Origin: Dokdonia sp.
Lineage (GTDB): Bacteria; Bacteroidota; Bacteroidia; Flavobacteriales; Flavobacteriaceae
Reading direction: 5' to 3'
Assembly: GCA_020630915.1 (NCBI GenBank)
Contig: JAHDIF010000003.1
Coordinates: 1 to 64,000, forward strand
DNA: 64,000 bases
In this document: piece by piece, positions 2,452 to 61,611 of the stretch
How the letters are laid out: the number at the start of each line of letters is the position of its first letter
Numbering within the stretch: position 1 is the stretch's first letter
Notes under the pieces: model-generated
Database searches by the model: none
What the model was told of the DNA's origin: nothing
Seen by the model: only the letters and a program-made list of their open reading frames with translations
Translations under genes and position numbers: made by a program

Positions 2452-3855
2452 TTAATGGTTTAAATACTCTAGTAACTCATTCTCAAAAGTGGCGCGATGT
2501 AAGTTTGCATGACTGTTCAAGATCACTCCTTTTCTGTCAACTACAATCGTTTTGCTTAAATCATTGATGACGAGCTTTCTTCGGGCTTCTCTTATGTTAT
2601 CAAAACGATACTCATTATTAGGATTAAAGTCGTGCTTTTTTAAATGCCTTAACCACATATCCCCTTCTCCATTCACATTAATACCTATGAAGTTAAACTC
2701 AGGATATTTAGAAGAAAGTTCTGCTATTTTTCTGTGAGAATTCTCCATGTGCATCTGATTATTATAAGACCAGAAATAAATTACTGAGGGTTTGTTAATC
2801 CTACTAGATAATGTCACTTTAGAATTAACTGTAGGCTCCACAAGCATAAGGTCTGGGATGGTATTACCTGCTTCCATTTTCTTGTGATCATTATAAAGAT
2901 CGCTAACCCTTTGTTGGATATTCTTGTCTGTTATCTTTTGATGTAATAGTGTAAAAATTTGATCAACGCCACTTTTGTCATTGCTATTTGCTAGAAAAAT
3001 ACGTCCTGTTCTAAGTAACTTATTGTCTTTGAGAGCTTTATTAGTTATATGCTCGTCTATGACCTTAATTTCATTAAAATTGTGAGCATAGGAGACCGTA
3101 TTATAAGGCTTTTCATGTCCATACTTCATAAATGCTTGATTGTCAATAAAAGCATTCACATATCTTTGATATGCATATAAATCTGCTAATTTGTAATTAT
3201 TTAAATCTATGCTTTCGCGAAAGCTATAAAACCCTTTGGGAAGTTTTTCTATAAACTCTAACTTATCTTTTCCATAGTGAGAAAATGGATAACTTTCTTT
3301 ACGCTGATAATTATCTAAGGTAATTGCTGCTTCTGCAATCTCTTGAAAATCATTCGAAACATCGTGCTTGTTCAAAAATCGAGTAAAATGAGCGTTTCTT
3401 ATGTGTTGTATTGAATCAAGAAAAAGCTGAAAATCAGAAGGGTTTTTTTGATAATGTCTTGTAAACCCTTCATTTTCTTTTTCCCATAAAAGATACATTT
3501 CTACTAAAAAATTACTTCTTTCAGATCCCTTTCCAGAAAAACTAAGGGATTCGTCAAACTCAATGGTGTTAACCCGCATAAGGATGCTATCACCTTTTTC
3601 TAAATATAGTAGTTGATTTTCTCTATGTCTAAAATTAAAAAGGCCTAGAGAATCAGTCTTGAAAGTGTATGAAAAGCGATTGCGATCATCTAAAAAGATA
3701 GTGTCTATCACTTTACCTTTTTGCAAAAGTACAATGTGGTCATTTATTGGATTGATAATCTCTCCACCTAAAGAAGTTTGTAGAGCAGAGTCTGTTCCTT
3801 TATGGCATCCAACGAGTAGACTGGTAAGAAATGTCAGCAAAAAAATGCGTCGCAT
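2452..3855 (-). CDS. TlpA-like lipoprotein without redox cysteines
   Basis: 467 residues. The N-terminus is a lipoprotein signal with lipobox LVGC (lipidated C17). A long alpha/beta N-terminal part resembles the DUF4369-type domain of Bacteroidota TlpA proteins. The C-terminal third (from about residue 335) has the thioredoxin-like core 'SVIYFWSYNNQ...FNFIGINVNGEGDMW...VVDRKG'. Where TlpA proteins have WCxxC this one reads SYNNQM, and C17 is the only cysteine in the protein. A disulfide-exchange role is therefore unlikely, and a binding or structural role in the periplasm is inferred. The 14-base palindrome at 3211-3224 encodes SFRES here. Confidence 0.82.
   Translation of the reverse strand: MRRIFLLTFLTSLLVGCHKGTDSALQTSLGGEIINPINDHIVLLQKGKVIDTIFLDDRNRFSYTFKTDSLGLFNFRHRENQLLYLEKGDSILMRVNTIEFDESLSFSGKGSERSNFLVEMYLLWEKENEGFTRHYQKNPSDFQLFLDSIQHIRNAHFTRFLNKHDVSNDFQEIAEAAITLDNYQRKESYPFSHYGKDKLEFIEKLPKGFYSFRESIDLNNYKLADLYAYQRYVNAFIDNQAFMKYGHEKPYNTVSYAHNFNEIKVIDEHITNKALKDNKLLRTGRIFLANSNDKSGVDQIFTLLHQKITDKNIQQRVSDLYNDHKKMEAGNTIPDLMLVEPTVNSKVTLSSRINKPSVIYFWSYNNQMHMENSHRKIAELSSKYPEFNFIGINVNGEGDMWLRHLKKHDFNPNNEYRFDNIREARRKLVINDLSKTIVVDRKGVILNSHANLHRATFENELLEYLNH
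3211..3224. repeat. GCTTTCGCGAAAGC palindrome, copy 1
   Basis: A perfect 14-base palindrome inside the TlpA-like lipoprotein gene, read as SFRES. Confidence 0.9.
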
Positions 3856-3996
3856 AGATAAAGTGTAAATTTTACTAATAGCAATGATGATTTTGATTGA
3901 CTATCAAATGTAACTTTTACACACCATACCTATTGTTAATTAGAAGTTAAAACCATATTCCTTTTGTTTAAGCTTCACAATATCTAGAAGTTTGGG

Positions 3997-4004
3997 TATT
4001 TTTG
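3997..4004 (+). promoter_or_regulatory. -7 box of the ABC-F gene
   Basis: TATTTTTG fits TAnnTTTG and predicts a transcript start near 4011. That excludes the upstream start at 4002 and supports the ATG at 4026. Confidence 0.55.
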
Positions 4005-4025
4005 CAGGCTCAAATATATTACACT

Positions 4026-59639: not shown

Positions 59640-60100
59640 TGAGGAAGTATATTAGGGCATCACACTACAGAAGTATTCTTAAAGGGATATCTTGGCGCAT
59701 TATCGCAACGATAGACACGATCCTTGTCGTCTTAATAGTTACTTGTTTTTTTGATAGCTGCAGTTTAGAGAATGCCTTAAAAATTGGGTTTTCTGAATTT
59801 TTAATTAAGCTTGCTATATATTATGTTCATGAGCGAATATGGGAAAGAAGAAGAAGAGGTCAGGAGATTACACAAAGAACAACTTTATATAAGACGATTT
59901 CATGGCGAATTATAGCTACAACTACTACCTTTGTAATTGCTGGGGCCATTTTAGATAATTTTGATTCCGTGGCATTGGCGATTGCTGGAATAGAATCTGT
60001 AAGTAAGTTCGTTTTATATTATGGGCATGAGAGAGTTTGGCTTAAACTGCCTTTGGGAAGAATTCGAAATTATGTTTTTAAAGTACTACGCATAAAATGA
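59639..60100 (+). CDS. DUF2061 membrane protein with two domain copies
   Basis: 153 residues made of two homologous halves: 'ILKGISWRIIATIDTILVVL ... KLAIYYVHERIWER' (about 13-71) and 'LYKTISWRIIATTTTFVIAG ... KFVLYYGHERVWLK' (about 83-140). Each half has two membrane segments and an (I/F)...YY.HER.W motif. No function is known for DUF2061. Its place between cysQ and cysC, with overlaps at both ends, ties it to PAPS metabolism or sulfate handling. Confidence 0.88.
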   Translation: MRKYIRASHYRSILKGISWRIIATIDTILVVLIVTCFFDSCSLENALKIGFSEFLIKLAIYYVHERIWERRRRGQEITQRTTLYKTISWRIIATTTTFVIAGAILDNFDSVALAIAGIESVSKFVLYYGHERVWLKLPLGRIRNYVFKVLRIK

Positions 60101-60699
60101 AGGAAAATATAATTGCGCATAGCTTTGGGATTACCCAAAAAGAAAGAAACCAACAGAAAGGGCATAACTCCTTTGTTGTTTGGTTTACAGGACTTTCGGG
60201 TTCTGGGAAATCTACAGTGGCAAATGAAGTAGAAAAAGCTCTTTTATCTAAAAATATACATAGTTACATATTAGATGGAGATAATGTGAGACAAGGATTA
60301 AATAAAAATTTAAGCTTTGCACCAGAAGATAGAAAAGAAAATATTAGACGTATTGCAGAGGTGTCTAATCTTATGATTGATGCTGGTATAGTCGTGCTAG
60401 CTGCTTTTGTATCTCCTTACAGAGTAGATAGAGAGAATATTAAAAACATTGTAAAAGATAATAAGTATATAGAGATCTATGTGAATACCCCTATTGAGGT
60501 ATGTGAAGCTAGAGATGTTAAAGGTCTCTATAAAAAAGCTAGAGCAGGAGAAATCACTAACTTTACAGGAATAAACGCACCTTATGAACCTTCAGAAAAT
60601 CCAGACTTAGAGATAGATACATCTGTATTAAGTTTAGAAGAGTCTGTAGAAAAAGTGATGCATTTTTTAAAAAATAAACTAATCATTACCAATGAGTAA
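60097..60699 (+). CDS. cysC: Adenylylsulfate kinase
   Basis: 200 residues. P-loop 'WFTGLSGSGKSTVANEV', 'ILDGDNVRQGLNKNLSF', 'EDRKENIRRIAEVSNLM' and 'GLYKKARAGEITNFTGI'. It phosphorylates APS to PAPS, the sulfate donor. It is a stand-alone kinase, not fused to CysN. It overlaps both neighbours by a few bases. Confidence 0.97.
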   Translation: MKENIIAHSFGITQKERNQQKGHNSFVVWFTGLSGSGKSTVANEVEKALLSKNIHSYILDGDNVRQGLNKNLSFAPEDRKENIRRIAEVSNLMIDAGIVVLAAFVSPYRVDRENIKNIVKDNKYIEIYVNTPIEVCEARDVKGLYKKARAGEITNFTGINAPYEPSENPDLEIDTSVLSLEESVEKVMHFLKNKLIITNE

Positions 60700-61597
60700 A
60701 TATTATTTAAACTACTTAGATGAATTAGAGTCTGAAGCAATTTATATACTGAGAGAAGTATGGGCTCAATTTGAGAACCCAGTAATCCTCTTTTCAGGAG
60801 GTAAAGATTCTATCTTAGTAACACATCTAGCCAAGAAAGCTTTTTATCCGGCTAAGATTCCGTTTCCTTTAATGCATGTAGATACAGGGCATAATTTCCC
60901 AGAGACCATACAGTTTAGAGACGATCTTATAGATGAACTAGGGGTCCAGCTTATTGTGGGTTCTGTACAAGAATCTATTGACCAAGGACGCGTTGCAGAA
61001 GAAAGAGGTAAAAATGCTACCAGAAACGCATTGCAGATAACGACCTTACTGGATGCTATTGAGTCTAATAATATAGACTGTGCAATAGGAGGAGGGCGCA
61101 GAGATGAAGAAAAAGCAAGAGCAAAAGAGCGTTTCTTTTCTCATAGAGATGATTTTGGACAATGGGACCCAAAAAACCAGCGACCAGAATTATGGAATAT
61201 TTTAAACGGAAAGCATTTTGAAGGAGAACATTTTAGAGCGTTCCCCATAAGTAACTGGACAGAAATGGACGTTTGGAATTATATCCAAAGAGAAAATATT
61301 GCCATCCCATCATTATATTTTGCTCACGAGCGAGAAGTAGTCTGGCGCAGTAATTCTTGGATTCCTATGTCTTCATTTTTGAAACTAGAAGAAGGAGAAG
61401 AAGTTGTGAAGAAAAAAATTAGGTTTAGAACTTTGGGTGATATAACTATTACTGGAGGGATAGAATCAGATGCAGATACGCTAGAGAAGATTGCTGTAGA
61501 GGTTTCTGCAATGAAACAAACCGAAAGAGGCAATAGGAGTGATGACAAGCGCAGTGAGACGGCGATGGAGGATAGAAAAAGACAAGGTTATTTTTAA
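60692..61597 (+). CDS. cysD: Sulfate adenylyltransferase subunit 2
   Basis: 301 residues. PP-loop ATPase: 'NPVILFSGGKDSILVTHLA', 'LMHVDTGHNFPETIQFRDD' and 'IGGGRRDEEKARAKERFFS'. With CysN it makes APS from sulfate and ATP. The typical C-terminus 'RGNRSDDKRSETAMEDRKRQ' with 'GYF' at the very end is present. A palindrome copy and 30 bases lie before cysN. Confidence 0.97.
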   Translation: MSKYYLNYLDELESEAIYILREVWAQFENPVILFSGGKDSILVTHLAKKAFYPAKIPFPLMHVDTGHNFPETIQFRDDLIDELGVQLIVGSVQESIDQGRVAEERGKNATRNALQITTLLDAIESNNIDCAIGGGRRDEEKARAKERFFSHRDDFGQWDPKNQRPELWNILNGKHFEGEHFRAFPISNWTEMDVWNYIQRENIAIPSLYFAHEREVVWRSNSWIPMSSFLKLEEGEEVVKKKIRFRTLGDITITGGIESDADTLEKIAVEVSAMKQTERGNRSDDKRSETAMEDRKRQGYF

Positions 61598-61611
61598 GCT
61601 TTCGCGAAAGC
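61598..61611. repeat. GCTTTCGCGAAAGC palindrome, copy 17
   Basis: A perfect copy in the 30-base gap between cysD and cysN, starting at the base after the cysD stop codon and ending 16 bases before the cysN ATG. Confidence 0.9.

Follow-up and report, generated by a model that had tools for sequence, protein, structure and literature searches.

The first 64,000 nucleotides of contig JAHDIF010000003.1 from Dokdonia sp. (assembly GCA_020630915.1), referred to here as the window, contain 17 perfect and two one-mismatch copies of GCTTTCGCGAAAGC, a perfectly palindromic 14-bp motif that was noticed in a preliminary description of this DNA and was recovered at every start position given there. One additional copy with two mismatches (6769..6782) may be either a chance match or a decayed site. 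With up to two mismatches allowed, dinucleotide shuffles of the window averaged 0.18 matches, with no more than one match in any of 100 shuffles, in agreement with the earlier estimate that chance would supply well under one copy. When gene contexts are taken from mechanically called open reading frames (ORFs) of at least 120 aa, 10 of the 17 perfect copies fall within ORFs and seven between them, the same split as first described.

Perfect copies within ORFs are located at 3211..3224 (ORF 2452-3855, minus strand), at 7566..7579 in pheT (6987-9419, minus strand), where genome G017 holds a different tract of equal length, and at 9770..9783 in the thioredoxin-like C-terminal part of ORF 9511-10737 (plus strand). 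An ORF encoding an M1-type aminopeptidase (14022-16154, plus strand) carries two perfect copies, one near its start (14106..14119) and one at 15234..15247, both read as AFAKA, together with a one-mismatch copy at 16027..16040; the counterpart of the copy at 15234 in genome G014 is GTTTTTGCAAAGGC. The other one-mismatch copy (11948..11961) lies within recG (11875-14019, minus strand). Further genic copies are found at 20022..20035 in an amidohydrolase/CpsA-like ORF (18806-20089, minus strand), at 22934..22947 (ORF 22438-23061, minus strand), at 40106..40119 (ORF 39965-40399, plus strand), at 55920..55933 (ORF 55117-56160, plus strand) and at 58244..58257 (ORF 57566-58417, plus strand). The intergenic copies are located at 18398..18411, 31038..31051, 35031..35044, 43449..43462, 46497..46510, 50835..50848 and 61598..61611, the last of these immediately past the stop of ORF 60692-61597 (plus strand).

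Abundance in Dokdonia and related genera

A count over the whole genome and its relatives, as proposed in the preliminary description, identified 685 copies in the genome to which the window belongs (2,967,236 bases in 18 contigs, 99.93% complete), equivalent to 231 per Mb or about one per 4.3 kb. The reversed control pattern has no copy in this genome. Markov models trained on 452,445 bases of the genome, with the motif masked, predict 0.002 to 0.006 copies per genome at orders 1 to 4; the count is far above this expectation and copies are not confined to the window. All 18 Dokdonia genomes counted (this genome and 17 others) are dense in the motif, with 369 to 905 copies each, and the same count in 41 genomes outside the genus found 39 without a copy, one with 578 and one with six.

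Scanning 397 Flavobacteriaceae genomes from 237 genera produced a match in 80, of which six are dense (408-857 copies; genera g1, g11 and g210) and 74 contain 1-19 copies. The two dense genera besides Dokdonia, g11 and g210, hold 408-664 copies, and other sampled genera of the family 0-19. In a scan of 247 genomes of the class, 11 of 240 members of other families gave a match, with at most two copies. RecG proteins share 87-88% identity with the RecG of the window in four named Dokdonia loci and 74-79% in the other 76 loci kept. This identity is 65-66% in g11, 77% in g210 and 70-79% in the site-poor genera searched, so that the dense genera look scattered within Flavobacteriaceae, as judged on RecG identity. 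Literature searches, including one with TTTCGCGAAA, returned no title or abstract describing the motif in Dokdonia, subscription journals and preprints being outside their scope.

Anatomy, conservation and spacing of the site

The 14-mer forms the core of a symmetric 20-bp palindrome, TAC-GCTTTCGCGAAAGC-GTA. Outside the core, about 15 nt on the 5′ side of each strand are mostly G/T-rich, and the preference reaches about 18 nt per side. Among 60 strictly intergenic Dokdonia sites, a set that includes orthologues, the core is most often preceded by T (0.91), A (0.73) and C (0.73); further out, from -4 to -18, T and G prevail at most positions and C falls to 0.01-0.11, the preference being weaker at -5, -8 and -14; the right flank mirrors the left. 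In the Dokdonia genome of the window this preference falls to noise level beyond 30 nt, and in other sets the outer 30 nt are still somewhat above the noise estimate. The flank pattern recurs in g11 and in phage contigs and is weaker in g210. The sample of the own genome contains 98 perfect copies and 23, 20 and 32 copies with one, two and three mismatches, compared to means of 0, 0.025, 1.0 and 12.4 at zero to three mismatches for 40 control palindromes built from shuffled halves.

Over 277 non-redundant sites, the bases at -d and +d are complementary more often than independence predicts for d = 1 and 2 (z of 3.1 and 2.8) and not further out. Because the flanks vary independently beyond position 2, we infer that the element is a double-stranded recognition site made of two independent half-sites for one symmetric (dimeric) DNA-binding protein, and not a hairpin; an RNA hairpin or cruciform is disfavoured by the same independence beyond ±2. 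Within ORFs, which hold 60 of the 98 sites of the own-genome sample, the AFAKA frame is preferred (34 sites), followed by LSRK (14) and FRES (12). The other 38 sites lie outside ORFs although ORFs cover 89.5% of the sample, with 4 in convergent, 10 in divergent and 23 in tandem gene arrangements and one at the end of a stretch.

In orthologous Dokdonia DNA of at least 94% identity, 26 of 26 site-pairs are intact compared to 12.4 expected from the outer flanks; the corresponding values are 52 of 56 against 9.4 at 88-94% identity and 70 of 105 against 1.5 at 75-82%, the site-pairs sharing species and not being independent. At 72-74% identity, many sites are not common to both genomes. Conservation at positions ±4 to 18 is 0.708, against 0.739 in the outer flanks, in the 75-82% class, and 0.867 against 0.880 and 0.944 against 0.949 in the closer classes. 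Close pairs have lost sites through single-base changes or single-base gaps. The comparison of orthologous genes envisaged in the preliminary description found that non-identical places mostly hold different bases over an equal length: ten comparisons between less closely related genomes gave 20 such places, of which 14 are ungapped within the core (six with one or two mismatches, eight with four or more) and six are gapped or shifted, some of the 20 recurring between pairs. The core is conserved far beyond its surroundings and is lost by small changes.

The spacing of the sites along the chromosome is under-dispersed. The 85 gaps of the own-genome sample have a coefficient of variation (CV) of 0.56, compared to 0.91 for random placement, and none is shorter than 1 kb against 17.1 simulated; if one-mismatch copies are counted as sites, six of 108 gaps are below 1 kb and the CV is 0.62. 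In G017, 8 of 115 gaps are below 1 kb against 30.0 simulated, and the CV is 0.73 compared to 0.90 simulated, with 0.72 as the minimum over 2000 simulations, the gap count omitting a stretch that repeats the contig start; close pairs in this genome are disfavoured, yet present. The repeat itself, between the ends of contig 1 of G017 (L130 and L441), covers the last ~19 kb fetched at 93.7% ungapped identity to the contig start and looks like an unclosed assembly overlap. In G017, 27 stretches of 20 kb were sampled (one of which repeats the contig start); every one contains three to eight sites, and the origin or terminus bias that the preliminary description had suggested looking for did not appear as a trend in site density over these stretches. 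GC skew in this genome is negative, turns positive from about 0.8 to 2.3 Mb and is then negative again save in one stretch. The 43 near-miss sites with one or two mismatches lie somewhat farther from perfect sites than expected, 11 being within 1 kb of one against 16.4. Compensation, in the sense of a new site near the place of one lost in another species, was not seen in 114 redundant pairs. Strict density homeostasis is disfavoured because non-shared sites are no closer to the sites of other species (median distance 1134.5) than are random mapped positions (1026).

Efflux blocks and phage contigs bearing the motif

Where other genera hold a few copies, these often lie in clusters; 20 stretches from 12 genomes (266,018 bases) contain 43 perfect, six one-mismatch and four two-mismatch copies. 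Blocks common to seven genomes (G118, G127, G141, G254, G376, G029 and G386) encode resistance-nodulation-division (RND) metal efflux proteins (ACR_tran, HlyD/CusB type and OEP) and heavy-metal P-type ATPases, and account for part of the stretches of these seven genomes among the 12. The efflux blocks of different Flavobacteriaceae genera share 71-95% DNA identity; their sites are in many cases perfect, and some are decayed or absent. These blocks appear to have moved between genera. They are found at loci L105-L119 (for example L107:5502-6728, L105:1632-5390 and L108:15680-19999), with conserved copies of the motif inside genes.

Exact scans of viral contigs identified at least 120 stretches with the core and 17 with the flanked form, and of 16 viral records recounted, 11 contain 2-7 copies and five contain one. 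Six uncultivated viral contigs (L390-L400) carry four to seven sites in 24-40 kb, or about one every 5-10 kb, with flanks resembling the bacterial ones; this density is a biased estimate, as the contigs were chosen for holding the motif and have no assigned hosts. Protein scans of four of these six contigs identified a terminase, portal, tail sheath, tape measure and transposase in G443, major head and tape measure proteins in G438, a tape measure protein in G436, and a DNA primase with a weak tail match in G439. One of the six motif-bearing viral contigs encodes a Mu-type transposase. Nonlabens phages P12024S and P12024L hold no copy and are uninformative, since their hosts are not placed as dense or site-poor. 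A group of low-GC viral contigs (L184, L191, L196, L210, L215, L240, L251 and L256) carries one 14-mer in a near-constant but different flank, which is probably unrelated to the Dokdonia site.

Candidate roles of the site

The reading that we tentatively prefer, although it is somewhat likelier to be wrong than right, is that the motif serves as a putative palindromic self-DNA recognition signal of the uptake-sequence kind, analogous to the DNA uptake sequences (DUS) and uptake signal sequences (USS) of Neisseriaceae and Pasteurellaceae. It resembles these in its hundreds of copies, its non-coding excess, the T-rich tracts beside its core and its lineage specificity. A self-DNA signal is favoured because the motif is common to apparently scattered genera and is present on seemingly transferred DNA, because point mutation accounts for most of its changes, with saturation by distance, and because own DNA is preferred by a competent relative (PMC7965970). 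This species, Riemerella columbina, is naturally competent, and no uptake sequence is established for it according to that paper. Even spacing of uptake sequences is Karlin's view, as given in PMC1939737. That a symmetric palindromic self-DNA signal is common to the three apparently scattered Flavobacteriaceae genera, the phage contigs and the transferred blocks is likewise tentative and falls short of an even call.

Under this self-DNA reading, a dimeric reader protein would bind the site on double-stranded DNA, and fragments with a site would have the advantage in binding and in exchange among cells of Dokdonia and the two other Flavobacteriaceae genera. Uptake and recombination biased in this way would seed sites, and keep them, in genes, spacers, prophages and further transferred DNA. 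The site may be kept because each piece of a few kb gains from one copy, a nearby second adding little.

Several observations weigh against a self-DNA signal. Known DUS and USS are not palindromes; the Dokdonia core, unlike them, is palindromic with flanks on both sides, has no orientation and shows close pairs rarely or not at all. According to PMC7811141, 23% of strong H. influenzae USS have another USS no more than 100 bp away, compared to gaps below 1 kb numbering just 0 of 85 in the own genome and 8 of 115 in G017. The author of PMC1939737 holds that the spacing of DUS and USS is less even than would be expected of sites that compact the chromosome. Between species, the 20-mer is followed on each side (±4 to 18) by positions whose conservation does not exceed that of the outer flanks, so that composition alone is kept there. 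Seven of 17 dense genomes and seven of 33 others have a match over cut-off to PF00437, the PilB-type ATPase family, whose presence does not follow site density, so that a type IV pilus link was rejected; with 10 of the 17 dense genomes lacking a match over cut-off, the usual type IV pilus route seems to be absent in many carriers, a further difference from DUS and USS. Copies on phage contigs are another such difference, and several sites per contig, in contigs selected for the motif, are not obviously explained by uptake. No candidate was found for a protein acting as reader or receptor of the site. Confidence is limited because the site is palindromic and close pairs are rare, and because PilB is missing from many carriers and phage contigs hold copies. 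A PilB-type ATPase is present in some Dokdonia and not in all (L389 in G010, L385 in G011 and L388, G000:C11:122356-123468), so pilus genes vary within the genus. Taken together, the family searches weaken the simplest models based on highly iterated palindromes (HIPs), on pilus-dependent DUS and on RecBCD with Chi, leaving a dimer site that is kept at about one copy per piece of DNA of uptake or domain size.

If true, this would make the motif the first candidate that we know of for a genome-wide self tag in Bacteroidota, mechanistically distinct from DUS/USS, HIP1 and Chi. HIPs have posed a puzzle in cyanobacteria, where they are usually linked to methyltransferases, and Dokdonia offers an independent case from another phylum, with a longer palindrome, a resolvable extended site, no shared methyltransferase within three families searched, and measured spacing and turnover. 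The extended site provides a concrete bait for a reader protein, and the dense and site-poor genera a natural comparison set. The tag may also trace transfer from Dokdonia-like donors into other marine bacteria, and its conserved copies in the metal-efflux blocks could be a tracer of transfer as well.

Ranking close behind the self-DNA signal is a role as anchor sites for a dimeric nucleoid-organising or chromosome-maintenance protein, placed about every 4 kb over the whole chromosome, which is unlikely but a serious contender. Both this role and an uptake tag were among those first suggested. Symmetric independent half-sites, under-dispersed spacing, the presence of three to eight sites in every sampled G017 stretch with no origin or terminus trend, and the sites on phage contigs and common blocks are all consistent with such an anchor. 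Palindromic dimer sites are also the form of parS, the Noc-binding sites (NBS), the SlmA sites and matS; the ParB, Noc, SlmA and MatP systems are, however, far sparser and regionally biased, in contrast to 685 copies in the genome of the window and no origin or terminus bias in the genome sampled for it (G017). The motif is, moreover, sparse or absent in other sampled genera, which would be odd for a basic chromosome function, and no candidate protein was found.

A bidirectional Chi-like site, at which an AddAB-type enzyme would meet the same sequence from both sides and RecA would load on the G/T-rich 5′ flank, appears improbable. The G/T-rich stretch lies 5′ of the core on both strands and resembles the sequence of Chi itself, and the mean spacing is of the same order as that of E. 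coli Chi (3.1 kb in a K-12 sample). Known Chi sequences, however, are short and directional, E. coli Chi being 8 nt long, whereas the Dokdonia palindrome is directionless and evenly spaced. E. coli Chi is also clustered, with 43 sites in 150 kb of K-12 (CV 1.83) and 16 of 40 gaps below 1 kb against 10.9 expected, and the 20 nt flanking it are little enriched in G/T. RecC (PF04257) was found in none of 50 genomes, which is uninformative on density and means that the enzyme would need to be of the AddAB type.

Less probable again is a HIP1-type palindrome created and kept through a methyltransferase that recognises its inner part, such as TCGCGA or CGCG. The likeness to HIP1 drawn in the preliminary description stands as far as the gross phenomenon is concerned: as with HIP1 and the alternate HIPs of cyanobacteria, a perfect palindrome is iterated hundreds of times in genes and spacers and is restricted to a lineage. 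The expected common methyltransferase is the part that was not borne out within three families. A search for these families in 23 genomes, 14 of them dense, placed PF01555 over cut-off in 2 of the dense genomes, PF00145 in 6 and PF02086 in 8, and three of the 14 (G006, G009 and G281) had none of the three over cut-off, the single PF01555 match of G006 scoring 21 bits. For these families the HIP1-type methyltransferase link was rejected, and a role as a methylation or restriction site, one of those first suggested, is disfavoured, as none of the three families is common to the dense genomes. The usual type II methyltransferase site is, in addition, shorter than a 14-bp core with wider preference, and the Dokdonia motif differs from HIP1 in this symmetric flank preference and in being less GC-rich. 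Elhai reports in PMC4390886 that every HIP-bearing cyanobacterial genome has a methyltransferase predicted to recognise part of the palindrome; the HIP density given there is 1000-2000 per Mb, compared to 231 per Mb for the Dokdonia motif.

A self-spreading inserted repeat, either a small mobile palindrome or an element like the repetitive extragenic palindromes (REP) and bacterial interspersed mosaic elements (BIME) with their REP-associated tyrosine transposases (RAYT), is very improbable. Many short palindromes are typical of REP and BIME, and the high copy number, the occurrence in other genera and the six gapped or shifted places among the 20 non-identical orthologous ones would fit such a repeat. 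The Dokdonia motif, unlike these elements, is often intragenic (60 of 98 sites, in the three reading frames given above) and mostly substituted in place, with 14 of the 20 places, some recurring between pairs, ungapped in the core; this role, also raised in the preliminary description, is accordingly disfavoured, the other six places leaving the point undecided. Least plausible of all is a transcription terminator or RNA hairpin, for which the 20-nt palindrome would be able to pair, but 60 of 98 sites are intragenic, only 4 of 38 intergenic sites are convergent and the excess of complementarity is limited to ±1 and ±2.

Among the neighbouring genes of the window, the minus-strand ORFs 18806-20089 and 20540-21826 both match amidohydrolase and CpsA carboxypeptidase models with near-equal scores, and are probably a tandem duplication.

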